Below the pieces are notes generated by a model that was not told the origin of the DNA, made no database searches, and saw only the letters and a program-made list of their open reading frames with translations. This document shows positions 1 to 19,053 of a stretch of DNA of 64,000 bases, one piece after another (within the stretch, counting starts at the first letter, position 1; each line of letters starts with the position of its first letter). The translations under genes were made by a program, and so were the position numbers. Origin of the DNA: Prostheceraeus crozeri (Eukaryota > Platyhelminthes > Polycladida > Euryleptidae). The DNA is taken from contig CAJQUW010008951.1 of the NCBI GenBank assembly GCA_907163375.1, positions 126,501-190,500 on the forward strand, read 5' to 3'.

Positions 1-7
1 TGAAAGA

Positions 8-3000
8 ATGATTTCTCTTTCAGGTGATGTGAGTTCCAGCTCAGGACTCTCGCGACAAGGCAACGAGTGGGAATGTGCCGACTGCGGACATATGTTTACA
101 AGGAAGCACAGTCTCCTTCGACACATCAAACAACGTGTGTGTCAACGCAAAGCGGCGTCAATCTCCGGAGGTGAAGTTGATTCTGACGATGACATCTCCT
201 TTCCTTGCGATTTGTGCCCTCTTTCTTTTGATAGTCACTTTCAGCGATCTTCGCACAGACTTCAACACACGCATGCAAATGATCACTACACCAACGGTAC
301 CTCTACCATCTCCCTTATTAATGTTTCCCATAATAATTTAGTACGCGACTACTGCATGGAGTCCAATACTCAAATAGTAGATTTTCCTGAGTGGCTCCTT
401 CAAAATTCAAACATTATCGAAGCGCTCTTCAACAATTTAGACAATTTTAGAATGAAGGCGCTCATCTACCTTAAACTAAAATATATTAAAATAGATTTTC
501 AAACGGGTCAAGTGACGGAGAGAATACAGTTTCATGTTCCTTCCTCTTCCGCAACCGAAGTTGTAGACTGCGAGTCTTGGCTAAATTTTCACATTCAATG
601 TTTAAAATCAAATGTAGATAAATTCAATCAACGCGACAGCGCTCTCATTTTTGATGGTGTGGACTCAGCCATATTCAAAATTTCCCTATTAGAAAGTCAT
701 GCAGCTCGAGGCACATTTAAACTACCAAAAACGTTGTATAATAAGAAAGCTGTCATCAATGTTGATTGTAAATCACAGTGTTTCAAATATGCAGTCCTAT
801 CCATCCTTCACTATAATGATATCAACGCGCATCGAGATCGCACCTATAGCTATAGACAGTGGGAGGATGAACTAGACTTTGAAGGTTGTGATAGTAACAA
901 CATGAAAATCAAAGATGTAGAAACGTTCGAAAAACATAATAAGATTAAAATTGTCGTTCACGTGTGGGAGAAGGGGTTGAAGGGTGCCCGCTATAATTCA
1001 CGTTCAACTTGTTATGAACGTGTAGTCAACCTCTTATCAGTAAAACAAGATGATAGCGAGGAATGGCACTACTGTGGTATTCCCAAAATCTCTCGCTTGT
1101 ACACTCACTTGGGGCACTCTAAAAGAGGTGAACATTTTGTATGCGACCGCTGCATCCGCTCCTTTTGGAGTAAAGATAAATTTGAAACTCACTATGAATG
1201 GTGCAAGCGAGGTAAATTACAAATGGAACGCATGCCCAAAGATAAAATATTTTCACATAGGGATAATGGTGACGAATTAAGTCCCCTGCGTGTCATTTAC
1301 GCAGACATAGAATGCTACATTGATGATATCATCCACAAGCCAGCAGCCATATCCTGCTATGAAGTATGGCATGACCACTTTAGGAATAGACAAAACAAAA
1401 TGCATACTTGGCAAGGTGAAGATTGCATTTCAAAATTTCTAGAATTTCTCGATAAAGCTGCTAAATTTCAACAATCATATGATTCCCAATTGCAGCGTAA
1501 GTCACTACATATGTCAGATGAAGACAAACAAAAATTTGAAAGTTGCACATCCTGTCCTAAATGTCATAAAACGTTTGATGACGATAAAATTAAGAAAGTG
1601 CGTGATCATGATCACATCACTGGTAAATTTAGAAACGCACTCTGCTCCAAATGTATTTTTTCACTTAGGTTGAGACGTCGTGTACTACCCGTCATTTTTC
1701 ATAACTTTAAGGGCTATGACAGTCATATGCTCATAAAAGGAGGGTTGAGCCAGATGAAATCGTGGCAGTTTACTGTAATAGCACAAACGAGAGAAAAATT
1801 CATGGCAATGACAGCAAAAGTACCAGTAGATAAAACTAAAGAAAATAAGACAGTCTTCTTCGAAATAAAATTTTTAGATTCATTTCAATTCATGTCAGCG
1901 TCACTAGCTTCTCTCGTTCGTAATCTCAAGTTTCTTCCCCATAGTCAAACTTTGAAGAAACACTATCCAAACTTAACGGATGAAATAATCACTCGCAAAG
2001 GAGTCTTTCCTTATGCGTATTTTAGCTCAATGTCTAAACTAAATGAAACAACCCTTCCTTCCATTGACAAATTCAAAAACGATTTGACGGGTGAAGATTG
2101 TCCAGTAGAGGACTATGAACATGCTCAAGAGGCATGGTTAAAATTTGATTGTAAAACGTTTGGCGATTATATGATCGCTTACTTAGAATTAGATGTCATT
2201 TTGCTGGCTGATGTCTTTCAGGAGTTTCGACGAGTGGCATTAGAAGAAGACAAATTAGATCCTGTCCACTTTGTCAGTCTACCAGCCATGTCCTTTAAAT
2301 CAGCCTTTAAAATGACTGGTGAGACCATTCATCTCTTACAAGACCCGGAGATGTATAATATATTTGAGCGCGGAATACGCGGTGGTCTCACATTTGTAAA
2401 TAAACATCATATAAAATCTGAAACAGTAGGTGATGATCATATCCACCTAAAGTACTATGACCAAAATAATTTATATGGTAGTTTACTGTCTAAACCACTA
2501 CCTCATTCCGAGTTTAGTTGGTTAAATCAAAATGAGCTTGAGTATTACTCCAACCCTTCAAACATACTGAAGATTCCAGATGAAGGTGATTGGGGATATT
2601 ATTTTGAAGTGGATTTGATTATCCAAATAGTATTAAAAATAAAACTGCTGATTTCCCACTTGCACCTGAATCTGGCGAAGTGACTGAAGATATGTTTTCA
2701 CCATTCATGTCACAATTTCATAATAACTTAACAGAGTGTGGACAGCCAAGGTACAAACCATGCCGCAAACTTTTACTCACCCAATATGATAAGAAAAATT
2801 ATCTCGTACACTTCTGCATATTAAAATTCTATTTAGAAATGGGCATGCTTCTAAAGTCAGTTCACCGCATTATCAAATTTAGACAGAAAGCCTTCCTCAA
2901 ACCCTACATAGATAGTAACAGTCAAAAACGTGCACTCGCCCAAAATAATTTTGAAAAGGATTTTTATAAATATAAGAATAACAGTCTATTCGGAAAGACC

Positions 3001-3811
3001 ATGGAGGATGTTAGAAAACGTATGAATTACAAACTAGTCGTTGATGAACAAAAATATCACAAATTGACCTCATCACCTCTTTTCATTGATAGAGACATCA
3101 TCGATGAGGATCTTGTAGGTGTTAAAATGATTAAATCAGAAGTTGAGTTGTGCAAACCCATCTATATTGGGCAAGCCGTTTTAGATTATTCCAAGCTTGA
3201 AATGTATCAACTCTTCTACAAAATATTAAAACCATGCCCTCTCGTAAAAGAGGTTCGCTTGCTGGGTGGTAATACAGATAGTTTCTTTTTAGGAATTACC
3301 ACTCAAAAAGATTTAAATTTTAATGAAGTAGGCAAGTCATTAGAAAAATATTTCGACACATCTAACTACATTATATCCCACTCATCCACTCTATTCCATA
3401 CAGAATAAAGCCAAACTTGGTTGTTTTAAGGATGAAACAGCAGGAAAGGAAATAGATGAAATGATTCTCCTCCGTCCTAAAATGTATTCCATGAAACTAA
3501 AAGAATGTGCAGATAGTATTAAGCGTGCTAAAGGTATATCAAAATCCATTGTTCATAAAATGAAACATCGGTCCTATAAGAAGGCCTATAAAAATAAAAC
3601 TATAACGTTTGTCAATATGACAATCTTAAAATCTCAAGTTCATACTGTGAAAACGTACACGTTCAAGAAACGAGCACTTTCAGCATGGGAGGATAAGAGG
3701 TGTTGGATAGGACATAACACATCTCTTCCACATGGACATCCTGACACAAACATACCTCCACCCAAAAGAATAAAACTCACGCTACCACATTCAGGAGATG
3801 TATTGACATAA
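8..3811 (+). pseudogene. POLB: Protein-primed DNA polymerase B, broken by two frame changes
   Basis: This is the replicative polymerase of Maverick elements, which copies linear DNA from a terminal-protein primer. The N-terminus has zinc-finger-like clusters (residues about 23-45 and 66-90, a third near 380-400). Exonuclease motif I, ADIECYID, is near residue 433. An HNH-like insert, RDHDHITGKFRNALC, is near 532, and KGYDSHM follows near 570. Polymerase motif A (YDQNNLYG) is near 818 and motif B (KNNSLFGKT) near base 2975. The reading frame changes near 2617 and again near 3375-3385, so no single product can be made. At motif C (about 3271) the expected DTDS reads NTDS: the first catalytic Asp is Asn. 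The region ends with a basic tail. The family call is certain; loss of function is strongly supported. Confidence 0.93.
11..23 (+). promoter_or_regulatory. Probable 3' splice site at the polymerase 5' end
   Basis: A pyrimidine-rich tract followed by CAG (ATTTCTCTTTCAG) lies at the start of the polymerase reading frame. This suggests that the ATG at 8 is intronic, that exon 2 begins at 24 (needing one base from exon 1), and that the true start is to the left of the window. Confidence 0.5.
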
Positions 3812-3960
3812 TCAACTTTAACTCAGTATTTTGATGTTGCTTTTTGTAGATATACATGGTTGTTTTATGTATCGCATGAGATCGTTTCTTCCTTGTGAAT
3901 ATATGCCTACAGTCAGCCCATTCCCCTATATCTGTGAAAAGACTTTTTCATATACATATT

Positions 3961-3974
3961 TTTATTTCAATAAA
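3961..3974. terminator. Bidirectional poly(A) signal between convergent genes
   Basis: The 14-bp stretch TTTATTTCAATAAA contains AATAAA on the plus strand (3969-3974), downstream of the polymerase. It also contains AATAAA on the minus strand (3966-3961), 45 nt downstream of the leftward 499-aa gene. Confidence 0.6.
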
Positions 3975-4010
3975 CATATCACAATGACTTCACTTTGTTT
4001 TCCGAAACAC

Positions 4011-5510
4011 TTAAGTTACGAGGGATTTAGTATCTTTCACGTGGATGCACTCTTGTAAACCATTGGTAATTTTGATAGCAATAGAGGGTATAGTTTGTTT
4101 GATGACGGGATGATAGAAAATAGATTCAAACATCTTCTCGACTATTCCATATGAAGCGTCTTTATCATGAATGAAATCACGTAAAATGTATTCTTTTTTC
4201 TCGCCAACAGAAATAGGTAAAATCAAATCACTTTGAATGTAAAGGTGCTGTTCATGTTTATCAAGTGTCATTGGTGTTTCTATACCAATCGTATGCGCAG
4301 CAGCAAACACTGTTTGTAGCATTGAAAAGCCAAAGAGTTTTTTCAAATTTTTACTCAATTGACATTGAATGTCATCACCCAGTTTCAGAACAACGCGTTG
4401 ATTTTCAATTGAAAACGAAATGTGGTGTGTCTTTGCATCATATTTACTTTTCATCACATGCTTCAACTTCTGTTGTATATAAGGATTTACTACATGAATG
4501 AAGCTTTCAACTGTATGATATAGACGCGGCATTATATTGATAGCAACTTTAGATTCTTCATAAGACTGGTAAATTTTCTTGATGCGATCGCCATAGATGT
4601 CCACCCACCATTCATCATTAACTGAATCAGCTTTAGTGTGATATTCATGAGAAGCATACACCACACCGCTTCCAATAATAGGCGTATAATGTCTTACAAA
4701 ATGACGCAAGGTTGGAGAGAAATAAACTGTAAGTTTGTCATTATATTTCTGAATAACCAACTTATTTTTGTCCGCCATAATTTTCTCTCCATACGTCTTA
4801 CCCACAGTCTCATTCCATCGTTTTACTAACTCAATAAGTGATAAAGGTTGAACACCACGCTTTTTCAAAATGATGCGTTCTTCGCATTCTACAACATCTT
4901 CATCAAATATTTTAAATCTATAATGAAATTTGTTGATTCGATTTGAATAAACTTTTTTAACATTTGCAGTAGCAATTGACGTTAGATGTAGTCCATGACC
5001 AAAACCAAGATGTGGATAGAATTCACTATCCAACCTCAGCGTAAGACCTTTAGTAAAAGAATGAAAGCGGAGGAACTGTCTCCCACTCCAATGATAGATA
5101 GTAAACTCATAAGCTTTCTTATTTTTATTCTTCATGATGGAAGTATTACCACTGTTGAATGCCTTAATAATTTTCTCATTCCCAAATGGCTCATAAGAAT
5201 CTGATTTTATCTGAATCCATTCATAGTTCCACTTTCCATCTGACGTTAAATTGTATGGGAACTGAAATGCATTATTCATCGTTATTCCATCATGGGTGTG
5301 AGGAGTCAATATCATTTCTTCCAAATCATTCACATTCTGAATATTGCTATCATAGCAAATACTAGAAACGCCAACCTCCCATTCACCTTCTAAATGCAGT
5401 GGCCGATTTAATTCTACTCGATAGTCTGATGGTTTATTTTTGGGAAATTTATTCATAGAAGCATTACTGGGCAAGTAGATTAGAAACGAGTCCTTATTTT
5501 CACTTTCCAT
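4011..5510 (-). CDS. Maverick-associated protein of unknown function, paralogue of the next gene
   Basis: The reading frame is open and encodes about 499 aa from the ATG at 5510; an upstream in-frame ATG at 5540 would add 10 residues. I chose 5510 because the ATGCAAAC motif at 5543-5550 then sits 33 nt upstream, as at other genes of the element. It has no recognised enzymatic motif. The N-terminus reads SFLIYLPSNASM followed by GEWEVGVSSICY, matching the layout of the adjacent 465-aa protein (SFYHILLSNAAT, GNWEVGVTQLVY). Both also share an LFGF/LGFD segment and a late IQSD/IYSN segment, so they arose by duplication. From its place in the element I infer a virion or fibre-like role; this is not shown. 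Confidence 0.7.
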   Translation of the reverse strand: MESENKDSFLIYLPSNASMNKFPKNKPSDYRVELNRPLHLEGEWEVGVSSICYDSNIQNVNDLEEMILTPHTHDGITMNNAFQFPYNLTSDGKWNYEWIQIKSDSYEPFGNEKIIKAFNSGNTSIMKNKNKKAYEFTIYHWSGRQFLRFHSFTKGLTLRLDSEFYPHLGFGHGLHLTSIATANVKKVYSNRINKFHYRFKIFDEDVVECEERIILKKRGVQPLSLIELVKRWNETVGKTYGEKIMADKNKLVIQKYNDKLTVYFSPTLRHFVRHYTPIIGSGVVYASHEYHTKADSVNDEWWVDIYGDRIKKIYQSYEESKVAINIMPRLYHTVESFIHVVNPYIQQKLKHVMKSKYDAKTHHISFSIENQRVVLKLGDDIQCQLSKNLKKLFGFSMLQTVFAAAHTIGIETPMTLDKHEQHLYIQSDLILPISVGEKKEYILRDFIHDKDASYGIVEKMFESIFYHPVIKQTIPSIAIKITNGLQECIHVKDTKSLVT

Positions 5511-5542
5511 ATTATTCACATTGGAAAAATATATTAGCATAC

Positions 5543-5550
5543 GTTTGCAT
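5543..5550 (-). promoter_or_regulatory. ATGCAAA promoter-like motif (ATGCAAAC)
   Basis: On the minus strand this is ATGCAAAC, 33 nt before the ATG at 5510 and overlapping the stop of the preceding gene. It is one of six such sites in transcription orientation. Confidence 0.5.
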
Positions 5551-6947
5551 TAACTCTTCATTCGGAAATGGAGTGTGATACTTGTCACAGCATCTTTATG
5601 AAAAGGAATCAACGCACCAGCATCGTCATAAATGGCAATATCAATTTGTGGGATGTAGTTTGATTTCAGCTTTGTATAATGCACTTTCTTGAAAGTATGC
5701 TCAGATAAAATACTGCAGCTTTTTGGCTGGTATGGTATCATTGCTAGCAATGGAGCTTCAACATCTCCCACACGTACATCTTCACCAATATTGGAATATA
5801 TCTGAAAATAGTTAATACGACGCGATAGCGACATGTCTGCGCTAGCTTTGGTTACAGTACCACTTTTAAAGATATTTTGGTCAAAACCCAAAATGTCCAT
5901 TAGAGTTTTATCCATAATTAGTTCAATACCTTTTCCACTTATAGTGAGAGACAAAGTACCTTCTTTTTCAGAAAATGAAATATGTTGGTCATTAATCACT
6001 TCATTTAAATAATCTACAACCAATTTAACTGAAGTAATAATGCGAGGCATCAACACTCTTGTTTCATGTAAGATACCACCTAAAGGCTCTACACACTTTC
6101 TGTATAAAGATACGGTCCATTCTGTATCAAATTGATTTGACCTTTCACATGGTAAATGTTGCATATCAAATTTTCCATGAACAGCTGCAGAACGATGTCG
6201 TAAGAACTGATGAAAATCTTTTGAACAAACTAATACTAGATCATCATCATTTAATTTACTTATTGCAATATGATTAGATGATTTAATATAAGTCAATGTT
6301 GCCACTTGCTTGCCATCAACTCGAAGGAGATAATTAAATTTCTTCGATAATGTTTCAGGAGTCATGTTTGTCTTTCTTGGCTTAATCACAATCTTCTTCA
6401 CCAACGTCTTCTCATTTCTTGGAATAAGATCTACATAATAAGCTTCCTCTCGATATATTAACTGTTTATGAGCACTTATGTGGTAATTAACGTTAAAATT
6501 ATCATAGCTTGTCAAGGCGCTAGCGAGGTAGCCTAAATCATTTCTTAAATTTGGACTTAAACCAACAATCCAATCTTTCTCAACTACATGATGTACATAA
6601 TTATAATCATCATTGTGCGGAGTAAATTGGACAATATGTTTACACGCTCTATTCAAGAAATCATATATAAACTTTTTACATGATAAGAGATCTTTCTTTG
6701 GCCACTGTGGAATGTATACTCGGCACCCCTTTTCACATTGATAAGCAGCTGTACGCCTCATATTAATAGTCATCACCTCATGATCAAAAGTATAGACACA
6801 GTTGCTATAAACAAGTTGAGTGACACCCACTTCCCAATTCCCATTTAGCTGTTGTGCATGATCAATGGGAGTAGAAAAGAGTGCAGCTCGATTACTAGTA
6901 AATCTCTTTGTAGCCGCATTGCTAAGCAAAATATGATAAAACGACAT
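5550..6947 (-). CDS. Maverick-associated protein of unknown function (465 aa)
   Basis: This open frame starts at the ATG at 6947; the longer frame to 6968 begins with a non-ATG codon. It is a paralogue of the downstream 499-aa gene: the N-terminal NWEVGV motif, the central FDTEWTVSLY (compare VNDEWWVDIY), the LGFD segment and the C-terminal YSN...VGD segment occur in the same order. No transmembrane segment or catalytic motif was recognised. The ATGCAAAG motif lies 22 nt upstream, and the divergent PC4-like gene starts 36 nt away on the other strand, so the two share a compact promoter region. Confidence 0.72.
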   Translation of the reverse strand: MSFYHILLSNAATKRFTSNRAALFSTPIDHAQQLNGNWEVGVTQLVYSNCVYTFDHEVMTINMRRTAAYQCEKGCRVYIPQWPKKDLLSCKKFIYDFLNRACKHIVQFTPHNDDYNYVHHVVEKDWIVGLSPNLRNDLGYLASALTSYDNFNVNYHISAHKQLIYREEAYYVDLIPRNEKTLVKKIVIKPRKTNMTPETLSKKFNYLLRVDGKQVATLTYIKSSNHIAISKLNDDDLVLVCSKDFHQFLRHRSAAVHGKFDMQHLPCERSNQFDTEWTVSLYRKCVEPLGGILHETRVLMPRIITSVKLVVDYLNEVINDQHISFSEKEGTLSLTISGKGIELIMDKTLMDILGFDQNIFKSGTVTKASADMSLSRRINYFQIYSNIGEDVRVGDVEAPLLAMIPYQPKSCSILSEHTFKKVHYTKLKSNYIPQIDIAIYDDAGALIPFHKDAVTSITLHFRMKS

Positions 6948-6968
6948 TTTTATATTGCTAATCTGCAA

Positions 6969-6976
6969 CTTTGCAT
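6969..6976 (-). promoter_or_regulatory. ATGCAAA promoter-like motif (ATGCAAAG)
   Basis: Minus-strand ATGCAAAGTTG, 22 nt before the ATG at 6947, in the short divergent space between the leftward 465-aa gene and the rightward gene at 6983. Confidence 0.55.
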
Positions 6977-6982
6977 AACATC

Positions 6983-7339
6983 ATGAAGACTTGGATTTTG
7001 GACTCTCTACAATATATCAGAGTTGATCGTGATGGAAACGTACATTTCAAAAATTCTCATGGTCATACATCAAGAGGAATTACATTAACATGGCGACAAT
7101 TTGTCAACCTCAATGATATCATGAGGGATTTGGAATATTTTGAAACATTAAGATTCATCTCCTTGGGTGATCAAGTTTGGCTTCAACATTACAGAAATGA
7201 AATTCAAATCTACCATTCTCATTCCGCAAACTGTTTCTCATTTCGCAAATACAATTGGGAGAAGTATAGAAGATATATACATCGCTCCATCATGACATTT
7301 ATTCGTCGTGAGTTCATCGCCCTACTATGCAAATCTTAA
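6983..7339 (+). CDS. PC4-like (p15) DNA-binding domain protein, copy 1
   Basis: 118 aa from the ATG at 6983 (the frame before it starts with TTG). The N-terminus follows the layout of the PC4/p15 transcription-cofactor domain: a W-L-x-S-L strand, a V-x-F strand, and the signature-like RGITLTWRQFVNL resembling the PC4 segment KGISL-x-x-x-Q-W-x-x-L. The second half (VWL, IQIYHS, WEKYRRYIHRS) is shared with the next gene. PC4 binds single-stranded DNA and assists RNA polymerase II. That role for this protein is inferred from the motif and from the neighbouring TBP-like gene. Fold assignment is moderate; paralogy to the next gene is clear. Confidence 0.55.
   Translation: MKTWILDSLQYIRVDRDGNVHFKNSHGHTSRGITLTWRQFVNLNDIMRDLEYFETLRFISLGDQVWLQHYRNEIQIYHSHSANCFSFRKYNWEKYRRYIHRSIMTFIRREFIALLCKS
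7327..7334 (+). promoter_or_regulatory. ATGCAAA promoter-like motif (ATGCAAAT)
   Basis: A perfect octamer ATGCAAAT on the plus strand, overlapping the end of the first PC4-like gene and 28 nt before the ATG at 7362. It is the only plus-strand member of the six-site set, and it precedes a plus-strand gene. Confidence 0.55.
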
Positions 7340-7361
7340 TCAGGCATGACTACTACACATC

Positions 7362-8012
7362 ATGAGTTGGAAATTAGATTCCCTACAACGTATTGAAACG
7401 GATCATGATCGAAACGTCTATTTCAAAGATTCAACTGGAAATGTGAGAAGAGAGTTTGCTTTATCTTATCGTCATTTTCAATCTCTACATCATATCATGA
7501 AGGACTTGAAATACTTCTATATGAAAAGACATTCACGTATTGGAAATCGCATCTGGCTGCGCGTCAACAATCGGCGAATTCAACTCTATCATTCCCAACT
7601 TCATACTAACTTCACATTTCATCAAGGTAGTTGGGAAAAGTATAAAAGGAAGGTACATCGCTCAATTTACTCATTCTTTCATCATGAAGCGCCATCGCTA
7701 CACCATCGTCAACATTCTCCGTCGCTTCAGACTCTACACCAAAATCGATCTCACAACATTACACCAACAGCTTCCAAACAGCAAGTATTACCCGGGCCGT
7801 CCTCAAATGTTAGTGGTGAAGATGAACAATTCACGGAATCTTCAACTCTTCCCAAATGGGACTGTACAGATTCTCGGCGCCCTTTCTCATTCATCGGCGC
7901 AGTCAATGCGCTTAGAGCTACAAAGACTACTACGTCGGATATGGAAGAGGGAGAGGTGTGTGATGTCGAATCTGACTGTGGACAATATGGTGATCTCTAC
8001 TCAATTGAGTGA
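7362..8012 (+). CDS. PC4-like protein, copy 2, with acidic disordered tail
   Basis: 216 aa. Residues 1-110 repeat the plan of the preceding gene: WKLDSLQRIE, FALSYRHFQSL (PC4-like helix entry), IWLRV, IQLYHSQ, WEKYKRKVHRSIYSF. Residues 110-216 are low-complexity, rich in S, T, P, D and E, with a short ordered-looking segment RRPFSFIGAVNALRA and an acidic end (DMEEGEV). The last 329 nt overlap the TBP-like gene in another frame, so either both are real overlapping genes or this frame's tail is partly accidental. An ATGCAAAT motif precedes it. Function is inferred as single-stranded DNA binding and transcription support. Confidence 0.6.
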   Translation: MSWKLDSLQRIETDHDRNVYFKDSTGNVRREFALSYRHFQSLHHIMKDLKYFYMKRHSRIGNRIWLRVNNRRIQLYHSQLHTNFTFHQGSWEKYKRKVHRSIYSFFHHEAPSLHHRQHSPSLQTLHQNRSHNITPTASKQQVLPGPSSNVSGEDEQFTESSTLPKWDCTDSRRPFSFIGAVNALRATKTTTSDMEEGEVCDVESDCGQYGDLYSIE

Positions 8013-8229
8013 CAGTCTATCATTTTTGAAGATTCGTACCAGCAGTTATAGTTTGTGTTATGAACCCGAACTTTTTCCTGCAGCTCTCATTAGTTGTTGG
8101 TTACCTGTGCATGTGGCAATCTTTCATAATAGTAAAGTGATCATTACTGGACTAAAATCTCATGTACAAGCAAATGTGATCCTAGACTATCTCATTGAGT
8201 ATGTACGTACCCAGCGGATTGTAAAATAA
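7684..8229 (+). CDS. TATA-binding-protein-like protein (two-repeat TBP fold)
   Basis: 181 aa from the ATG at 7684, about the size of a TBP core domain. Two repeats are visible. Repeat 1 has IVNILRRFRL, K-x-DL-x-TL, N-x-x-YYPGRP and LFPNGTVQILGA, in the order of TBP's first repeat. Repeat 2 has NMVIST, then YEPELFPAALIS, the TBP signature (canonical YEPELFPGLIY), then VAIFHNSKVIITGLKS. Three of the four aromatic positions that kink DNA in TBP appear as Phe (LF, ELFP, IF); the fourth, in repeat 1, is Pro (GRPQM). The longer frame upstream begins with TTG and only shadows the overlapping gene. AATAAA (8225-8230) overlaps the stop. Its role as a promoter-recognition factor is inferred from the fold. 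Confidence 0.82.
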   Translation: MKRHRYTIVNILRRFRLYTKIDLTTLHQQLPNSKYYPGRPQMLVVKMNNSRNLQLFPNGTVQILGALSHSSAQSMRLELQRLLRRIWKRERCVMSNLTVDNMVISTQLSDSLSFLKIRTSSYSLCYEPELFPAALISCWLPVHVAIFHNSKVIITGLKSHVQANVILDYLIEYVRTQRIVK

Positions 8230-8260
8230 AAAACAATTTTTCCAACATGATGTTTTTATT
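8225..8260. terminator. Convergent poly(A) signals overlapping both stop codons
   Basis: AATAAA on the plus strand (8225-8230) overlaps the TAA of the TBP-like gene. AATAAA on the minus strand (8260-8255) overlaps the TAA of the protease gene. The two convergent transcripts therefore have minimal 3' UTRs. Confidence 0.6.
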
Positions 8261-8717
8261 TCAAATCATGATAGAACTTACAAATCATTTTTTCATTAGA
8301 GGATGGATTACATGAAAAGTTTTGAATAACAGATGGAAATCGAGATACATGTAAACGTTTTAAGATGAAGTACAGTACAAAAGCACCACACGTTGATGAA
8401 AGTGGATGTTGTAGTATGCGTTCATTTCGCTGATATTGACGCGTATGTTTTCTCAACCACTGCTGTGTTGGTATATTTGGAGGTTGAGCAAGAGAGTCAA
8501 ATAGTTCACCACGTCGGTCTTCTCCAATAAAGATCGCTTTCCAATGCTCACCGCCTAAATTCTGAGAATGAGTGTTTAGCACAATAAAGATGGGATAGTG
8601 ATTTACTGCAGGTGGTAAGGTATCGAGTGAATAGACATTATCGAAAGCTTTCAACGTCGCTTCGTCTGCATTACGCTGCACTTTAGTCTTAATATCGTCA
8701 GCAGTCAACCAACTCAT
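8256..8717 (-). CDS. PRO: Adenain-like cysteine protease
   Basis: 153 aa. The C5/C48-type protease triad is visible in order: His in GEHWKAIFI (residues about 56-64), acidic residue in ELFDSLAQP (about 71-79), and Cys in SSTCGAFVLYF (about 107-117). Gln/Asn residues precede the Cys region. Adenain-type enzymes process virion proteins during maturation. The frame is intact. Its start overlaps the stop of the capsid-type gene by one base (TAATG), suggesting translation from the same mRNA by reinitiation. Last gene of the leftward virion cluster. Confidence 0.88.
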   Translation of the reverse strand: MSWLTADDIKTKVQRNADEATLKAFDNVYSLDTLPPAVNHYPIFIVLNTHSQNLGGEHWKAIFIGEDRRGELFDSLAQPPNIPTQQWLRKHTRQYQRNERILQHPLSSTCGAFVLYFILKRLHVSRFPSVIQNFSCNPSSNEKMICKFYHDLK

Positions 8718-9994
8718 TAACGATTATACTGAAGAATCACGTCACGATACTTTGTAATTTCAATATTTGAATCGAAGACTGCATAAATTAATACATTGAT
8801 CGTCTCAGGTAGTGTTCTTTTGAACGTCAAATCCAAACGAATATTATGAGGCACGTTCGCTTGACGATAGGGTGCACTAATATCGCTGTCAGCAGTCAAA
8901 TCAAATGCATAAATAGTATATCCACTCTTAAACTCTTTCATAGTCAGTCCGTTGGTATCATCCGTATTGTAAAAGCCAAAGACATCCATAAAATCAACAT
9001 AACTGCGCATAAATTGATCCGAAGCAAAATCTGGTTTGTAGGGTGGACCAGGATGACTCACACCATTTACACGTAAAGCAATTTCACTTAACTGATTGTG
9101 TTTAAAATTGAAAGGATTCTTCTTTATATTACCATTAAATGCATCATTTTCAACCATTGCCACCATGAGGAGCTTCGGTGCTTCCGATGGAAAGAGGCCA
9201 TCTTTCATGAAACTCTTTTGATCTTTCGGAATTGTAAAGGTGAGAAGCTTTGTATGCTGAACGGGGTAAATGGCATTTTGGCGGTTAAGACCTTCAGCAT
9301 GCCCTCTAATGACACTTGGATTCGGTACTACTCGACGAATGTAAAGTGCAATATCTTCCACATGAATTCTAAAATTGTCAACTTTAGCAAATGCATTCAG
9401 CGCAAATTCAGGCTTATTCAATGTCAGCTTGAGTCGCATGCTGGTATTACAGAGTAAAAACTTTGACTGTCTAAAGAAGTCTAAATTCAGCGGACCATAT
9501 AGCTGACATACTCTACTATCTTTAATCATAGCAGATCGCTTTACAAAGCCACTGTTTGTTTCAACATCAAATTTTCCTGCTTCATCTCTGTACCATCCCA
9601 TGGCTTCCATATGACTTTTTTGTGCTGCTGGATGAAACTGTGATACATGATTGAAATATGATTTATAGGGATAATCGCTTTGACCACCTTCCACCTGCTG
9701 CTCTCCAATCGTTAGAGAAACATCGCGAAGTAATGTAGTCAATGGTAAATTGTTCAGTCCAACTTTATGTGCATCGTCAATAGCAGTTCCATCTGCTTGC
9801 TGAATTCTAAACCTCAAATCAAGCATCGCATAACTCAAATCTATGTAGTCATCACTACCACCAGGAATAACAAATTCAATGGGGCCAGCATTCTCAGCTG
9901 TTCGAGGATGATAATCTACAATACTTGAACTAAGAATATCTGTCTGTATGGCTTGTTGATCGAACAAACAAAAACCGGAAGTTTTACACTCCAT
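8717..9994 (-). CDS. Capsid-type protein, probable major capsid protein (F54H12.2-like family)
   Basis: 425 aa, intact. The N-terminus (SSIVDYHPRTAENAGPIEF, then DYIDLSYAMLDLRFRI, LTTLLRDVSLTIGEQQVEGG and YPYKSYFNHVSQF) matches the pattern of the invertebrate family named after nematode protein F54H12.2, which recurs in Maverick-like elements and is taken as a jelly-roll capsid protein. The sequence is beta-rich with no catalytic motif. It lies between the core-like protein and the protease, as expected for a virion cluster. I infer the major (hexon-like) capsid protein; a minor capsid or penton role is the alternative. Confidence 0.65.
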   Translation of the reverse strand: MECKTSGFCLFDQQAIQTDILSSSIVDYHPRTAENAGPIEFVIPGGSDDYIDLSYAMLDLRFRIQQADGTAIDDAHKVGLNNLPLTTLLRDVSLTIGEQQVEGGQSDYPYKSYFNHVSQFHPAAQKSHMEAMGWYRDEAGKFDVETNSGFVKRSAMIKDSRVCQLYGPLNLDFFRQSKFLLCNTSMRLKLTLNKPEFALNAFAKVDNFRIHVEDIALYIRRVVPNPSVIRGHAEGLNRQNAIYPVQHTKLLTFTIPKDQKSFMKDGLFPSEAPKLLMVAMVENDAFNGNIKKNPFNFKHNQLSEIALRVNGVSHPGPPYKPDFASDQFMRSYVDFMDVFGFYNTDDTNGLTMKEFKSGYTIYAFDLTADSDISAPYRQANVPHNIRLDLTFKRTLPETINVLIYAVFDSNIEITKYRDVILQYNR

Positions 9995-9996
9995 GA

Positions 9997-10452
9997 TTAG
10001 AAGTTATAGCAGCGTCGTCGTTTAGCGCCTGATGAATGATTAGAGCCTCTGCGACGTTTGCGTGAATGCCTTTTGACTGAAGATCGCACCTTACCAGCTC
10101 CGCGATGTTTCCTCCTTCCTTTTCTCATTCGTTTAGGTGATTTCTTTCCTTGAGTAACACCAGCAATGGTCTGCTTCAATGTTTTTAAACCGCGTTCCTT
10201 CCCACGATTCAACAAACTGCTCTTAAAACTTCTACCTCTGGAAAGATCACTAGCAACATCACCAGCAAAGCCAACGGCATTACTTAAAACATTTCGTTTT
10301 AAAGATCTACCGACATTGGATATGAGAGGTGCTACAACAGATTTCAGTGCACCAAGTATGCTACCTCCACGTTGGCGGCGAGCACCGATGTAAATTTGTC
10401 CTCCACCACTTACGTAGGAGGGTCGTGAATAAAATGAGGCAGTTGGATTCAT
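9997..10452 (-). CDS. Basic glycine-rich core/minor virion protein
   Basis: 151 aa. The first half has GGSILGALKSVVAPLI, an amphipathic segment, followed by a Lys/Arg-rich helix region (FKSSLLNRGKERGLKTLKQ). The second half is extremely basic with R/K clusters (KRMRKGRRKHRG, KRHSRKRRRG). Such proteins in adenovirus-related elements package DNA or link genome to capsid, the inferred role here. The stop lies 2 nt before the capsid ATG. An ATGCAAAG motif lies 31 nt upstream, apparently heading the core-capsid-protease cluster. Confidence 0.7.
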   Translation of the reverse strand: MNPTASFYSRPSYVSGGGQIYIGARRQRGGSILGALKSVVAPLISNVGRSLKRNVLSNAVGFAGDVASDLSRGRSFKSSLLNRGKERGLKTLKQTIAGVTQGKKSPKRMRKGRRKHRGAGKVRSSVKRHSRKRRRGSNHSSGAKRRRCYNF

Positions 10453-10482
10453 AGCTCAAACCCTAAACATTGTTAGTTACAA

Positions 10483-10490
10483 CTTTGCAT
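10483..10490 (-). promoter_or_regulatory. ATGCAAA promoter-like motif (ATGCAAAG)
   Basis: Minus-strand CATGCAAAGTTGTA, 31 nt before the ATG at 10452. It resembles the site at 6969-6976 in its 3' flank (GTTG). Confidence 0.55.
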
Positions 10491-10493
10491 GAA

Positions 10494-11759
10494 TCACTGT
10501 CGATCACTTAGATGAAAGATGTCGGCACGACGCATCCAAGAGTTCATACTTGAAGGATAACCAGTCCATTTAACAAGACACCATTCTTCACCTTGCCGTT
10601 TTTTACATCGAATGATTTTCTCTACCAAATATGTTTCACTTTCAGTGACTACCTCAATCTCATCGCGGTAAAAGCTACCCTCAATTTCTTCATTATCGTA
10701 ATCTTTCAACTTGTAGGTGGTCGGAGAGTCTTTTTGATTAATCCTTGATACTGTAAATACCTCCTCTGTCCAATTCGGGAGGTACCCTTTAGCAAAAACA
10801 CTTTTCACTTTTGAGATACGAACTTTATCGCCAATTTTCACATCACTTTTCACATGAGTGCGTTTACGTTGGAATGATTCGCGCACTTTATCTACATTGT
10901 CAGCATTTACATCTACTGGTCTGAGTCCAATAGAACGATGGATAGAGTGATTGTAGGCATGGAGTGTATCTTGTAGAACCTTTGTCCAATTTTGTGTCAA
11001 GTTGGCAGTAAAATGTCGCCACAAACGATTTTTTAATGTGCGATTAAAACGTTCAACGAGTGCAGCTTTATAAGCGCTCTTTACACTAAACAACTCAATG
11101 TCATGCCTCTCAAATAATCTTGTCACATGCTGATTTTCAAACTCTTTTCCTTGATCACTCTGAATTCTTTTTGGAATGCGACCTTCTCGAAAAATTGTTT
11201 GGAATGCTTTTGCTACTCCTTTCCCTTCTTTAGTTTTAAAGGTTGAGCCCACGCATAACGCGAGAAAATATCAATGACGGTTAAAATAAAATTATTGCCC
11301 GAGTTATGTTTTGAAATGGAGGCAACATCGCACAAATCTGCTTGCCACTGTTCATCGATGTCATGAACAATATAATGGCGGGTGCGGTACTTCTTTTTCG
11401 CTTGTTTGTGGAGTGTATAGGTAGCCTGACCCTTTAACCATCGTTTCACTTGTGATTGTGGAAGACCACTCGCTTTTGATAATTTCTTGATAGATGCAAA
11501 TCCTGCCGGATGTTTTACATCATAATAGATTGACTTCAAACGTTCAGTCGATGACGGCTGACTCTTTTTCCTCCTTCTCATCTTTTTTCTTTCTTGCCTT
11601 TCTACATTTACAACAACTGCAGCATTTAGCTTTAGCGGTTTTGCGATCGTGTTCACATTGCTTAGGGGTTTCATTATGAGAGCTGGCGCAGCAAGTGCAA
11701 GTGACAACGACATTCACCTCTGGCGGCTCATTACATGGCAAGCAACACATCTGCTTCAT
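10494..11759 (-). pseudogene. INT: Retroviral-type integrase with chromodomain, two frame changes
   Basis: Integrase of Mavericks, a DDE strand-transfer enzyme. Seen in order: a Cys-rich N-terminal segment (11759-11580, many CC and CxC), a helix-turn-helix-like GLPQSQVKRWLKGQ, the first catalytic Asp in WQADLCDV, the second in QSDQGKEF, and the Glu in ALVERFNRTL. After an SH3-like linker comes a chromodomain (residues YLVEKIIRCKKRQ through WCLVKWTGYP). The reading frame changes near 11545-11565 in an A-rich stretch and again near 11215-11250, so no single product results; homopolymer indel or assembly error is possible. The start is one base after the stop of the upstream gene. Confidence 0.9.
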
Positions 11760-11760
11760 A

Positions 11761-12453
11761 TTAATAGTCTGAGAACATGTATTTCCTAGGAGGAGCTGTT
11801 TTACGTTTTCCTTTTACCAGTTTTAGTGGCGATACAGATCTACGTCGAGTTCTTCCCCTTGTTTGCTTAGTGAGTGTGGGAGGGGATGTAGCAGGTGACG
11901 TCTTAAACCAATTTGTTGGCATTTTCATCGCCTGAAGCATTGGAGTAGTAGCCACTGTTGAATCAAGTTCTTTCAATGTCTCATTATTTAAAGCAAATTT
12001 TGGCACATTATGCTTTTTCAATAGTTTAAGAAAGTATGACCAACCAGGTGGAACATAGCCCTGACGGCGCTTTCTACGTGTCGCATACTGAATCAAGTCT
12101 TCATAACGTGAAGCATCAATCACTTTATTTTCATCTGTAATGATTTCTCCTCTATCATTTACATTGAGATGGGGTTCAATACTGTTGAAAAGAGATATGG
12201 CATGTGCGCGAGATGCTAAAGGTGTAGCAGTCGATACAGAGTCACGCATCTTATTCTTCAAGTTTTTCAATTGCTCAACAGTTTCCGATTGTAATAATAC
12301 AGCACGATGTGGATCTTTGATGTGAACATTTTGCTGATAATCTATTTCTTTCCTATACATTTGATTTGCAAGAGGTTGCTTTACTTGCTGCATGGCAGTC
12401 AATTGTACATATTCATCCTGAGGAATAACAATCATGCGAGAATAAGAACTCAT
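11761..12453 (-). CDS. Conserved Maverick-associated protein of unknown function
   Basis: 230 aa, intact. It carries RKRRQGYVPPGW followed by a short helical segment and NVPKFALNN. The arrangement (basic run, G-Y/F, P-x-GW, NVP) recurs in proteins next to Maverick ATPases in invertebrates, from general recollection of the family. The C-terminus is Thr/Pro-rich and basic (TRGRTRRRS). The start overlaps the ATPase stop (ATGA), implying coupled translation. It lies between ATPase and integrase, suggesting a packaging or virion role, which is inference. Confidence 0.65.
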   Translation of the reverse strand: MSSYSRMIVIPQDEYVQLTAMQQVKQPLANQMYRKEIDYQQNVHIKDPHRAVLLQSETVEQLKNLKNKMRDSVSTATPLASRAHAISLFNSIEPHLNVNDRGEIITDENKVIDASRYEDLIQYATRRKRRQGYVPPGWSYFLKLLKKHNVPKFALNNETLKELDSTVATTPMLQAMKMPTNWFKTSPATSPPTLTKQTRGRTRRRSVSPLKLVKGKRKTAPPRKYMFSDY

Positions 12454-13067
12454 AGTTTGTAGATAATCATGGGAGTTTTCAAAATATCACTTCGAAATCT
12501 AAATTCTTCCGGACACTCTTGCGTAAAGTCAATGAATAAGTAACCGTATGGTTTTTCAGTAGCTGCTTGAAAAATTTCAATTAAGGCTTTTGATCCTCTG
12601 GGTGCAACTTGTCGCGCTAAAATTTCAAATTGACTTTTATCTCGCGGATTCTTGAAAATAGCATAATAGTGTGTATTCAGGTTTCGTGTACGAGCTTCTT
12701 TTCCATCAGGAAACAAATTTTGTGTAATATAGATGATAAAACACCTTTTATGGTGTGCTGCGCGAGTGAACATATCTGTAACATCTTTTGAATTCTTACT
12801 TTCTTTTAATAAATCATCCAATACAACAACATCATTAGACTGAAGTTTATCCACTGGAATAATTCCTTCATGTCGAATAAAGTTGCGACTTTGCAATTCC
12901 TGAAACAGCGACGGTTGATAAATACCATAACACCAAATCACTCGATTGATAGGTTCCTTAAACAACTCCCTTCTTTTATCCAATAAATTCAGCGTGAAAA
13001 CAGTTTTACCTGCATGAGATGGACCTGATACAGTCAGAACTTTATCACATTGAAGTCTGAAATCCAT
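12450..13067 (-). CDS. ATP: DNA-packaging ATPase (FtsK/HerA, A32-like)
   Basis: 205 aa from the ATG at 13067; the frame extends to 13115 only with a TTG start. Walker A GPSHAGKT lies near residues 16-23, Walker B is the hydrophobic run ending VVVLDD near 80-86, and a polar sensor-like IYITQN follows near 115. This matches the packaging ATPases that pump DNA into capsids of Mavericks and related viruses. The frame is intact. An ATGCAAAT motif lies 22 nt upstream, in the gap after the 118-aa gene. It is followed by two genes with overlapping or adjacent starts, apparently as one transcription unit. Confidence 0.9.
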   Translation of the reverse strand: MDFRLQCDKVLTVSGPSHAGKTVFTLNLLDKRRELFKEPINRVIWCYGIYQPSLFQELQSRNFIRHEGIIPVDKLQSNDVVVLDDLLKESKNSKDVTDMFTRAAHHKRCFIIYITQNLFPDGKEARTRNLNTHYYAIFKNPRDKSQFEILARQVAPRGSKALIEIFQAATEKPYGYLFIDFTQECPEEFRFRSDILKTPMIIYKL

Positions 13068-13088
13068 TTTATTACTTTGAGACTCAAC

Positions 13089-13096
13089 ATTTGCAT
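13089..13096 (-). promoter_or_regulatory. ATGCAAA promoter-like motif (ATGCAAAT)
   Basis: A perfect octamer on the minus strand, followed by GTTG, 22 nt before the ATPase ATG. It heads the ATPase-unknown-integrase cluster. Confidence 0.6.
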
Positions 13097-13098
13097 AA

Positions 13099-13455
13099 TT
13101 AACGCTTAGAGCCAAAGATATTTCCCAATAGGTTGCCCACGGCAGGAGCTATCATTGGAAGTATTGCTGAAAGGAAACCGCCCTTTTGTGTTAGAGTTTT
13201 CCTCTTTCTTTGAAGGGCGACTTTAGGATTGGAGATGAAACGCAATTTCGTAGCATATCGCTTAAGTAACTTTCGTTGTTTTGGCGCTAATTTCTTCGTC
13301 CTCAACTTCCTCACATGAGAAATAATTTCACAAATGAATTTATCGTTAGCATGTCGTATAGCATTGTATCGCTGATTTGCTTTCATTCGTCGGAGAGCTT
13401 GAATGGCTGAAGAAAACTTTTGACTTTTACGTTTCGTCATTTTACGTTTCGCCAT
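13099..13455 (-). CDS. Small basic protein with hydrophobic C-terminal segment
   Basis: 118 aa. The N-terminal two thirds are Lys/Arg-rich and helical. The C-terminus is KGGFLSAILPMIAPAVG followed by a short basic end, which looks like a membrane-active or capsid-internal amphipathic segment. Small proteins with a conserved GGFL-hydrophobic tail accompany Maverick virion genes and are compared to adenovirus minor virion proteins; that link is inference. An ATGCAAAT motif lies 39 nt upstream. Confidence 0.68.
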   Translation of the reverse strand: MAKRKMTKRKSQKFSSAIQALRRMKANQRYNAIRHANDKFICEIISHVRKLRTKKLAPKQRKLLKRYATKLRFISNPKVALQRKRKTLTQKGGFLSAILPMIAPAVGNLLGNIFGSKR

Positions 13456-13493
13456 TTTCCGTGTTAGTCTTTGCTAAAACCTATCTTTACCAC

Positions 13494-13501
13494 ATTTGCA
13501 T
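13494..13501 (-). promoter_or_regulatory. ATGCAAA promoter-like motif (ATGCAAAT)
   Basis: A perfect octamer on the minus strand, followed by GTGG, 39 nt before the ATG at 13455. It overlaps no other recognised coding sequence. Confidence 0.55.
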
Positions 13502-13506
13502 AGGTA

Positions 13507-13830
13507 CTAACTATTGCGACATAAGTGACACTCGAAATGAGCAATGTCACAGTGGTTACATTGGCAAAGTTGAATGCAATTACGTATGAAACAGCGTTGA
13601 CAAAAAGCATGCTTACATCTCTTGAAGATGCGCTTTTCATTTCCATCCTTTCGCTTACATACATCGCAACACATAGTTTCACCGTTACTGATGTCTATAG
13701 CAAGTCTTTTTGAAGATATGAATTTGCTAGCCTTTTCTAAATAATAGACGCATGTACAGAAGGAATATACTTCGAGAGTGAGCAGACATAGCTCGAAAAC
13801 CAGTTGTGCTACAATCAAGTACCACTGCAT
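13507..13830 (-). CDS. Membrane-anchored RING-like zinc-binding protein
   Basis: 107 aa from the ATG at 13830; the frame before it starts with TTG. Residues 4-30 form a hydrophobic segment (LIVAQLVFELCLLTLEV), probably a membrane anchor. The C-terminal half has C-x2-C, 13 residues, C-K-H-x2-C-x2-C and then further Cys/His pairs, as in RING-type domains. Cellular RING proteins often act as ubiquitin ligases. Host manipulation is possible, but not shown. The start lies next to the stop of the upstream gene (13833). No ATGCAAA motif precedes it. Confidence 0.6.
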   Translation of the reverse strand: MQWYLIVAQLVFELCLLTLEVYSFCTCVYYLEKASKFISSKRLAIDISNGETMCCDVCKRKDGNEKRIFKRCKHAFCQRCFIRNCIQLCQCNHCDIAHFECHLCRNS

Positions 13831-13832
13831 TT

Positions 13833-14243
13833 TCAATTTTTCTTTATGGAAAGTTGAATGTGAATATCTGAAATCGCTTCAATCACTAGACTGCTACCAT
13901 GATGGTTAAATGCGTTAAGACGTTCAGCAATTTTTATCATATGTCTTTTAAAAAATTCTTGGGGGTGATCTACCACTTCCATTGAATAAGAAGCAAAATG
14001 GAAAGAGCGACTTTCCACCTCTTCCTTTCCAAAATGACTAAACTTAATTTTCGCAACTAATCGCGCCATGATAATGCTATCAGAGAATGTATTCATTAAC
14101 TCTAGAAATAGAGTGCTAGCATCATCGACCACTGCTTCGATGTCGGTCTCATCTTTATGAAATTTTATCACATAATCTTGAACAGCTCCTTTTAAACTTT
14201 GCCTATGAAAACGTAATGTTCCGCAGTCGTTTGAGAAAGACAT
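13833..14243 (-). CDS. Maverick protein of unknown function (136 aa)
   Basis: Open frame from the ATG at 14243. No motif with known function was recognised. It shows alternating strands and helices, with a final segment of the form FNHHGSSL...ISDIHIQLS. It is placed between the exonuclease-like gene and the membrane RING gene, among genes that lack the ATGCAAA motif. A GGGTTAG just upstream could be a 3' splice site. It is likely a real gene because its stop and the next start are adjacent. Confidence 0.55.
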   Translation of the reverse strand: MSFSNDCGTLRFHRQSLKGAVQDYVIKFHKDETDIEAVVDDASTLFLELMNTFSDSIIMARLVAKIKFSHFGKEEVESRSFHFASYSMEVVDHPQEFFKRHMIKIAERLNAFNHHGSSLVIEAISDIHIQLSIKKN

Positions 14244-14303
14244 GATCGCCCTTTATCTAACCCATCCATTGCATGAAAACAACAACTCTTCTCATAGTAA
14301 CAT

Positions 14304-14309
14304 TTATTG
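14304..14309 (-). terminator. Poly(A) signal downstream of the exonuclease-like gene
   Basis: Minus-strand AATAAA about 22 nt after the stop at 14331. Confidence 0.4.
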
Positions 14310-14330
14310 AATAATGGTAACAAGCATGCA

Positions 14331-14879
14331 TTATAAATCAATGGTTTGAAAGAGATAAAATAGATACAGCTGGTAACTATCATACAGCGAGCAATGATAA
14401 CCATACAGGACTTTGGCAGTGTTGAGGTAAGGAGGAAAGAAGCATTGGTTATGAACGTAGCTACTACAACGAACAGACAAAATAGGAACACACAAATCCT
14501 TAAAACGTTTTGTGACTTCATGATAATGTTGATTCACTCTACTATCCCAAGGTGGGAGCAAAATATCATCAATGATTAGATTGGGAAATACTTTCCTCTC
14601 CTTACCAGGATTATTACAAAAGATGCGTATAACATTGAAAGCAGCTAACCATCGTTTAAAGTCAATAAGAAGAGCACTCTCACAAGAAAAGCCATAGTCT
14701 TGCAAATATTTCAGATTAAGTCCATGAATGTGTTTTCTCGCCCATTGATCAACATTGGGATCGCAGTTGGCATGTTGATGATAGACACTAACAATCTGAT
14801 ATGTCCAATTGTTCATAGCAATAGCACTGAGCTCCTGTACAGGTTCACCCTCACAATCCATAAAAATGATGATAGAAGC
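14331..14879 (-). CDS. DEDDh (DnaQ-like) exonuclease-like protein, probable second exon
   Basis: From the ATG at 14861 it encodes 176 aa beginning DCEG, the D-x-E motif I of DEDD nucleases. In-frame sequence upstream to 14879 adds a hydrophobic strand (IIIF), as expected before motif I, and is preceded by TTTTAG, a possible 3' splice site. IHGLN plus a following aromatic-rich helix and F-x-x-WL matches the region after motif I of DnaQ-type enzymes. HCSLYD near the C-terminus fits the H-x4-D end motif. DEDDh enzymes remove nucleotides 3' to 5'. The polymerase has its own exonuclease domain, so a separate role (RNA trimming or proofreading) is possible. The frame is intact. Confidence 0.6.
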   Translation of the reverse strand, partial: ASIIIFMDCEGEPVQELSAIAMNNWTYQIVSVYHQHANCDPNVDQWARKHIHGLNLKYLQDYGFSCESALLIDFKRWLAAFNVIRIFCNNPGKERKVFPNLIIDDILLPPWDSRVNQHYHEVTKRFKDLCVPILSVRCSSYVHNQCFFPPYLNTAKVLYGYHCSLYDSYQLYLFYLFQTIDL

Positions 14880-14913
14880 CTAAAACGGAAATTTACACAT
14901 CTAAGGAAACGTT

Positions 14914-15114
14914 CTATAACATATTACAAAATGAAGAATTACATCGATGCTTTTCACGACAAAATACACAAATGATATGATGGCAACGAAGAAGTAAAAT
15001 GTATCTAATAAGACCACGTCTACGACACTCAAAGCACATAAGCGAATTGTCATAGGGTAGAGTTAGGAAAGGACTAGCAATTCTCCTTCTTTGATTTGCG
15101 TTTTGATGTAGCAT
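14914..15114 (-). CDS. Small RING-like zinc-binding protein
   Basis: 66 aa if started at the ATG at 15114, which overlaps the end of the upstream gene by 41 nt; an internal ATG just before CFEC or use as a spliced exon is possible. The pattern C-x2-C, 13 residues, C-H-H-x2-C-x2-C, then C-x4-C equals the spacing of the membrane RING protein at 13507-13830. The two are therefore probably related. The domain is shorter than a canonical RING. Confidence 0.42.
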   Translation of the reverse strand: MLHQNANQRRRIASPFLTLPYDNSLMCFECRRRGLIRYILLLRCHHIICVFCREKHRCNSSFCNML

Positions 15115-15846: not shown

Positions 15847-15944
15847 TTTAGTTGGATAATAGAACAGGGAACTAGAGAGAGAAAATGTGCGTCCGTCACT
15901 CGTGTGATTCAACGATGGAATGATTCTCACTGTGGAAGGCTCGC

Positions 15945-15952
15945 TATTTATA
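15945..15952 (-). promoter_or_regulatory. TATA box of the right-end gene
   Basis: TATAAATA on the minus strand, about 100 nt upstream of the exon-1 ATG. It would place transcription start near 15920. Confidence 0.55.
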
Positions 15953-15989
15953 AAGAAATGCTTGATTCTCATTGGATGATGATCCTCAT

Positions 15990-19050: not shown

Positions 19051-19053
19051 GCT

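Follow-up and report, generated by a model that had tools for sequence, protein, structure and literature searches.

TBP homologues are known from viruses (PMC7221094, PMC12529657 and PMC12917281), and a giant-virus TBP is mentioned in PMC11464507. KSHV ORF24 carries a virus-coded TBP-like domain that serves late promoters whose TATA word, TATTWAA, departs from the standard; according to PMC12529657, it is a large, multi-domain protein that works with five other viral factors, keeps all four Phe, has Asn at the position of T124 and lacks the TFIIB glutamates. The TBP homologues of large dsDNA viruses, as described in PMC7221094, have diverged at TFIIB-contact positions, and several of these viruses encode viral TFIIBs. 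According to PMC12209930, the TBP of Giardia has three of its four intercalating Phe replaced, prefers single-stranded DNA and belongs to a host without TFIIB homologues. A literature search for TBP in Mavericks, Polintons or adintoviruses found no report, the founding Polinton and adintovirus papers lying outside its scope; the main texts of PMC11071296, PMC11071308, PMC10120064 and PMC8097293 contain neither the word TATA nor TBP, and PMC12220804 and PMC13037468 do not mention TBP, the letters TATA occurring in them solely as part of an author's name in the reference list. Here we describe a Maverick element of the flatworm Prostheceraeus crozeri whose altered TBP probably serves to switch on the element's own capsid genes at a modified TATA box.

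The window, meaning the whole 64,000-nucleotide stretch of DNA that was analysed, contains an ORF of 181 codons open from its ATG (7684-8229, +); the chance of a given codon run of this length staying open at any one place, at the local composition, is about 5e-6. The preliminary description had read its product as a TBP with both repeats in order. The Pfam TBP model (PF00352) matched the protein (P0001) with E = 1.3e-19 and 70.2 bits (cut-off 22.9), in two stretches corresponding to both lobes, and an NCBIfam scan returned ten TATA-box-binding-protein models, the best at 3.1e-18 and all under their own strict cut-offs. A phmmer search against the PDB gave 35 sequences at E ≤ 0.01, named TBP, TFIID or fusions of these with one exception by name, the ECU04_1440 protein. 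A profile of 62 family members again found 35 sequences of TBP/TFIID kind (best 1.1e-24), and its full-length match aligned family positions 2-176 with positions 10-185 of 2z8u, the two direct-repeat lobes in order. These matches bear out both parts of the earlier reading, and on their strength the product is a two-lobe TBP homologue; the words YEPELFP, LFPNG and IFHNS, which had been singled out, are all present in the translation.

Searching a protein database with P0001 collected 61 proteins (of 97 candidates) at E ≤ 0.001, with identities of 34-81%, and PF00352 is matched at E ≤ 0.1 by all 62 family members, P0001 included. A family HMM built without P0001 recovered it with E = 2.6e-72, a search in which none of 1000 shuffled versions reached E = 10. 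The 19 family rows sampled for a tree of 32 rows form one side of a branch of length 1.41 with support of 100/100. No relatives of the TBP family, the capsid or the ATPase were found in the viral contigs scanned, nor of the TBP and capsid families in genome contigs, collections from which the window's own genome is possibly absent. A TBP search of phages found none, and one of plasmids gave five haloarchaeal TBPs at 26-31%.

Residues of the 62 family members were mapped by alignment to yeast TBP, in yeast numbering and with gaps lowering some totals; the DNA-contact positions were taken from Table 1 of PMC12529657, and the TFIIB glutamates and basic N-lobe face from the description in PMC7221094. 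The C-lobe contacts are retained at N159 (62/62), V161 (62/62), F190 (61/62), P191 (62/62), F207 (62/62) and T215 (61/62), as are the TFIIB glutamates E186 (61/62, with one Asp) and E188 (62/62); every member has Ala, Thr or Ser in place of L205, and V213 is mostly Ile or Met. In the N-lobe, N69 is kept in the 50 members without a gap there and F116 in all 62. Five other N-lobe positions have changed: F99 has become Pro in 58 of the 59 members aligned there, A101 is Met in 62/62, L114 is Gln in 58/62, V122 is Gln in 62/62, and T124 is Leu, Met or Phe in 62/62. Lys138, on the face used by other factors, is Glu in 42 of the 62; the yeast residue numbers of the basic N-lobe face are those we assume. 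The alignment thus indicates that the N-lobe minor-groove surface is rewritten across the family, with the C-lobe contacts mostly kept.

Three of the four DNA-kinking aromatic positions had been said to be Phe, and they are F116, F190 and F207; the fourth intercalating Phe of TBP, F99, is the one replaced by Pro. Since the Giardia TBP also lacks some of its intercalating Phe (PMC12209930), the missing Phe says more about how the protein binds than about whether it is a TBP. For comparison we used 11 of 13 TBP loci from viral contigs, together with yeast and M. jannaschii; the two loci left out were one identical over the match and one with equal scores but differing. The set Pro-Met-Gln-Phe-Gln occurs in 18 of the 19 sampled family rows and in none of the 13 comparators, with P99, M101 and Q122 in 19/19 rows and Q114 in 18/19 (P0049 has Leu). 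The comparators are uninformative on the glutamates, because they were picked by the words YExE[LQI]FP.

Set against the described systems, the element protein shares with cellular TBP and TBP-related factors the two lobes, most C-lobe DNA contacts and the TFIIB face, but it is only 21% identical to yeast TBP and its N-lobe contacts are rewritten. Like ORF24, it has polar residues at the L114 and V122 positions (PMC12529657); unlike ORF24, it has Pro for one Phe, Leu, Met or Phe at T124, the glutamates kept, and the form of a bare TBP core. With the TBPs of large dsDNA viruses it shares the standing of a TBP homologue in a dsDNA-virus lineage and an unconserved N-lobe regulator face (PMC7221094), whereas it retains the TFIIB contacts, and the part of the element within the window yielded no TFIIB. 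We regard the protein as a member of the TBP family whose carrier, within the literature searched, is of a new class and whose DNA surface shows a distinct, conserved change.

Such a combination could also be expected of a host shut-off or decoy factor that keeps its grip on TFIIB, has altered DNA binding and ties up host TFIIB. The near-invariant glutamates and the loss of one intercalating Phe in 58 of 59 members would suit this role. We nevertheless consider it improbable, as the three remaining Phe, N69, N159, V161, P191 and T215 are retained in nearly every member and the N-lobe residues that have been replaced are no less conserved than those retained, a pattern that argues for specific DNA binding.

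The preliminary description had also held that a Maverick element encodes this protein, and the genomic context agrees. In the 2.05-Gb host genome P0001 has at least 150 matches, the window's own included, and those listed are 99-100% identical and without stops; the best scores come first among the matches listed, so intact copies are favoured. P0046 likewise matches at least 150 places, with stops in 14 of the matches listed. Forty loci, representing 39 distinct places, were fetched; protease and capsid homologues adjoin the TBP gene in 37 of them, and an intact TBP frame was recovered by the filter in 30. Three loci of lineage D, with TBP at 42% and capsid at 44-58% over the matched stretches, keep the gene order of the window, with protease and capsid homologues beside TBP in all three. 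The three loci of lineage C (L036-L038, TBP 42-44%) have no protease or capsid homologues beside TBP; in L036 and L038 the gene lies close behind polymerase-like frames and beside a right-end-gene homologue, and L036 has two further homologues of right-side genes. In this lineage the TBP gene has moved or the element has been rearranged. Because many copies and divergent lineages have the TBP gene among element genes, and the gene is found in the own-genome lineages B, C and D, it belongs to the element. Element context is thereby proven for the own-genome loci and not for the 61 database homologues. Matching lengths were tried as a way of placing TBP and capsid database homologues on shared contigs; they gave one TBP/capsid coincidence (7106) where 0.52 was expected from shifted lists, which was not used, and a 1771-bp coincidence of P0002 and P0064 was reached in 5% of shifts.

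Between the window copy and lineage B, its sister (three distinct loci), dN/dS was 0.18-0.23, and against lineage C it was 0.34-0.40, values in which dS may be lowered by a second open frame that overlaps part of the TBP frame. The ratio of about 0.2 indicates that the TBP-like gene is under purifying selection and, with the 61 homologues, excludes a frame with neither homologue nor conservation. The host has a separate, canonical TBP, whose exons match yeast TBP at 80% and 94% identity across the stretches they cover and have the canonical residues at the DNA- and TFIIB-contact positions mapped; another host locus, at 39-41% and with one stop, resembles what we take to be TRF2. That the element carries a captured host gene by chance, a reading for which nothing spoke, is hardly credible, given the far lower identity of the element protein to yeast TBP, a gene order common to lineages 42% apart and homologues in many other sources.

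The element is roughly 16 kb or more in size, its left end lying outside the window. The RVE integrase that is a trait of Mavericks and Polintons is recognizable by domain matches at 10494-11713 (-), with a C-terminal chromodomain and broken into two frames overlapping at 11213-11252 (Chromo, E = 3.5e-7, exceeds its cut-off; rve, E = 7.6e-4, and IS481, E = 1.8e-7, stay under theirs). A probable protein-primed DNA polymerase B, so named from its motifs, occupies 8-3408 (+) in two frames, 8-2683 and 2680-3408, which overlap at 2680-2683; no polymerase model matched in the Pfam and NCBIfam scans of the element ORFs. With polymerase and integrase each in two overlapping frames, this copy is broken in both, and its TBP is intact.

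Two proteins presumed to be structural follow on the reverse strand, one of 509 aa (4011-5540, -) with no Pfam match and one of 465 aa (5550-6947, -) that is partly related to it, at about 30-40% over 44-63 residues. Between these and the TBP gene lies a tandem pair. Its first member, of 118 aa (6983-7339, +), has five database proteins, one of them its own sequence, and no convincing Pfam or PDB match. The second ORF (7362-8012, +) has a homologous part that ends near 7700 and overlaps the start of TBP; beyond about 7700 it is an open frame overlapping TBP. The overlap (7684-8012) covers the first 109 TBP codons and is open at full length in five of eight lineage B rows, one place counted twice, and shorter in three. 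A PC4/SUB1 identity considered for the pair was rejected, as PDB and Pfam profile searches gave nothing alike.

Beyond TBP, an adenain/Ulp1-type cysteine protease (8256-8717, -) matched Peptidase_C48 at E = 8.1e-4, 1 bit below the cut-off, and Peptidase_C5 at E = 0.038. The adjoining 425-aa protein (8717-9994, -), presumed to be the major capsid protein, which in Mavericks and Polintons is a double jelly-roll protein, has 263 database relatives at E ≤ 0.001 and no sequence match in Pfam or PDB. One of these, P0069, 86% identical, is labelled as a protein of a Pseudomonadota MAG and probably comes from a eukaryotic contig in the wrong bin. Next come a basic protein presumed to be a minor capsid or core protein (9997-10452, -; no significant Pfam match), a probable packaging ATPase (12450-13067, -; weak Pox_A32 match, E = 0.022) and an Adeno_PX-like core protein (13099-13455, -; E = 0.0024, under the cut-off). 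The right-end gene (15074-15846, -) is predicted to be spliced, its ATG (15846-15844) being followed directly by the donor GTAAGT (15843-15838), with a pyrimidine-rich acceptor whose CAG ends at 15776. ATCATG is the start context of six of the 19 listed window ORFs. At 16240-16665, near the presumed right end of the element, there are four runs of 9-10 G; further on are a direct duplication (16982-17306 and 17334-17668, 84% identical) and a tandem satellite of about 715 bp (18976-25873, ten copies in two variants). Neither an Rfam nor a tRNA scan gave any hit in the window.

The word ATGCAAA precedes six of the element's ORFs. On the reverse strand it lies within AATGCAAA at 5544-5550, at -10 from the 4011 gene's first ATG and -40 from ATG 5510, which aligns with the lineage D start; within TATGCAAA at 6970-6976 (-29 of the 5550 gene), 13090-13096 (-29 of the ATPase gene) and 13495-13501 (-46 of the 13099 gene); and within CATGCAAA at 10484-10490, at -38 of the 9997 gene that heads the 9997-capsid-protease run. 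On the forward strand it lies within TATGCAAA at 7327-7333 (-35 of the 7362 ORF). These heads are those of the 4011, 5550, 9997-capsid-protease, ATPase and 13099 units, all presumed structural, plus the small 7362 gene. The totals are ordinary, with 21 occurrences in the window against 23.3 expected and 9 in positions 1-16000 against about 6, and six of these nine lie at most 60 bp upstream of an ORF start on the same strand. Six of 17 element ORF starts thus have the word within the preceding 60 bp, always on the coding strand; random placement gave a mean of 0.32 heads and reached six in 0 of 20,000 trials. When all 7-mers were tested, none of 5000 random placements reached six heads, and a single one of 5000 random-ATG draws did.

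Among the lineage B rows that cover it, the word is unchanged in 16 of 22 at the 7362 head, 6 of 8 at the 4011 head, 20 of 22 at the 5550 head and 8 of 10 at the 9997 head, rows L024 and L051 being one place. Its mean identity is above that of the flanks at all four heads, and its conservation between the window lineage and lineage B is unexceptional (ranks 18-58 of about 120 against flanks).

Motifs were compared among the window lineage, B and D, the lineage C pieces fetched holding no structural genes. At the lineage D counterpart heads ATGCAAA is absent, and those first fetched have TAAGCAA or TAAGCTA in its place. TAAGC[AT]A was predicted for the ATPase and 13099 heads before these were fetched; the 13099 head has TAAGCAA at -37, as predicted, and the ATPase head has TAAGCTT at -34, missing the strict pattern by its last base. 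In the first copy TAAGC therefore stands at five of five structural (late) heads, at -34 to -38; the second copy has the same two words at the ATPase and 13099 heads, and the piece fetched of the third contains neither gene. A 5-mer common to all five heads arose in 0 of 5000 random draws in a 20-bp window and in 64 of 5000 over the full 60 bp, so that the lineage D signal owes part of its strength to the fixed distance. TAAGC is missing from three other lineage D heads (protease, capsid and 13833; 0/3) and from a second 13099-like gene, which has TAGGCAAA. The protease start has TATATA at -52 in two of three copies.

Given the lineage D word, the motif is better written as a GC-centred variant of TATA than as ATGCAAA. 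The presumed structural units are shown by these comparisons to be headed by a GC-centred TATA-like word, mostly TATGCAAA in the window and TAAGC[AT]-like in lineage D, at about -29 to -46 of the ATG. The suggestion that ATGCAAA serves element-specific promoter recognition is thus upheld as to place, a related word occupying the same late heads in lineage D, and not as to wording, which differs between lineages; recognition itself is something we infer.

A host POU or octamer factor might instead read the motif, leaving the TBP-like protein to act elsewhere or at ordinary TATA boxes. In favour of this, ATGCAAAT, which we take to be a POU octamer-like word, stands at three of the six sites. The other three read ATGCAAAG or ATGCAAAC, however, and the corresponding heads of lineage D have, within a narrow range of distance, TAAGC[AT]-like words that are not octamers; the position near the ATG fits a core-promoter element, and the five changed N-lobe DNA-contact positions are a feature of the whole family. 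A POU reader is therefore unlikely in our judgement. Distinctly improbable is that the element TBP simply supplements host TBP at ordinary TATA boxes. Its overall TBP homology and retained TFIIB face would allow this, and in two of the three lineage D copies a TATAAA lies at -51 of the 9997 head as well; but groove-lining L114, V122, T124 and A101 are all changed, and no TATA-like word lies at -45 to -25 of the motif-bearing heads of the window.

The TBP gene itself is preceded by TATAAAAG, a probable host-type TATA box (7641-7648, +) 43 bp upstream of its ATG, and by an initiator-like TCATTC (7671-7676, +) whose A lies 32 bp after the first T of the box. At the right-end gene, TATAAATA (15952-15945, -) is likewise followed by TCATTC, its A 31 bp on. 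The window has no TATAAA-N(20-28)-TCATTC pair besides these two, against 0.30 expected, and 4 of 100 shuffles reached two; the looser TCAKTY gives four pairs against 1.55 expected, reached in 5 of 100 shuffles. In sister lineage B, TATAAA is present in 20 of 23 rows and TCATTT in 19 of 23. TATAAA also stands at -43 of TBP in lineage C, where no TCAKTY was found with it, and at -46 or -47 in lineage D. The box, TATAAAAG in the window, shares its bases with codons of the upstream gene, and selection on that gene's protein may account for its conservation. In the gene-call extensions of homologues, I-K-x8-H occurs in 9 of the 12 with enough residues (0 of 2000 shuffles) and is missing in P0028, P0049 and P0057. 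It was set aside as a sign of a conserved TATA box and initiator, with which it is only compatible, as the own-genome DNA there doubles as the last codons of the upstream gene.

We return to the reading in which the element TBP acts at the modified box. The TBP gene would be made early by host Pol II from its ordinary TATA box; the product would then bind the modified late-gene box, bending it with its three Phe, and recruit host TFIIB and Pol II to the late genes. Use of host TFIIB is suggested by the retained glutamates together with the lack of any TFIIB match in the ORFs scanned; neither TFIIB nor RNA polymerase was found among the element ORFs scanned within the window. Loss of the basic N-lobe face may let the protein work apart from TFIIA, TAF1 and Mot1. 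Ordinary TBP excludes the guanine amino group, and Gln at two groove-facing N-lobe positions could accept it. That an element-specific TBP brings host TFIIB and Pol II to the late genes by way of a modified TATA box appears to us somewhat likelier to be right than wrong. On the fuller scheme opinion is nearly balanced, and we put it forward tentatively: a two-step Maverick programme in which host TBP would act early at TATA boxes, the element TBP would read the GC-centred variant at all structural heads through host TFIIB and Pol II, and box and protein would have changed together between lineages.

TBP genes have been reported from large dsDNA viruses; the carrier here is an integrating element of roughly 16 kb or more, with no TFIIB or RNA polymerase found in the part within the window. 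If true, the proposed arrangement would amount to a natural and minimal case of host Pol II being redirected by a single general transcription factor. It would open to testing the timing of Maverick capsid genes, the question of whether Mavericks act as viruses, and the lobe-by-lobe rebuilding of TBP specificity, and the 150 or more copies and several lineages in one genome would offer natural pairs of protein and promoter to compare.
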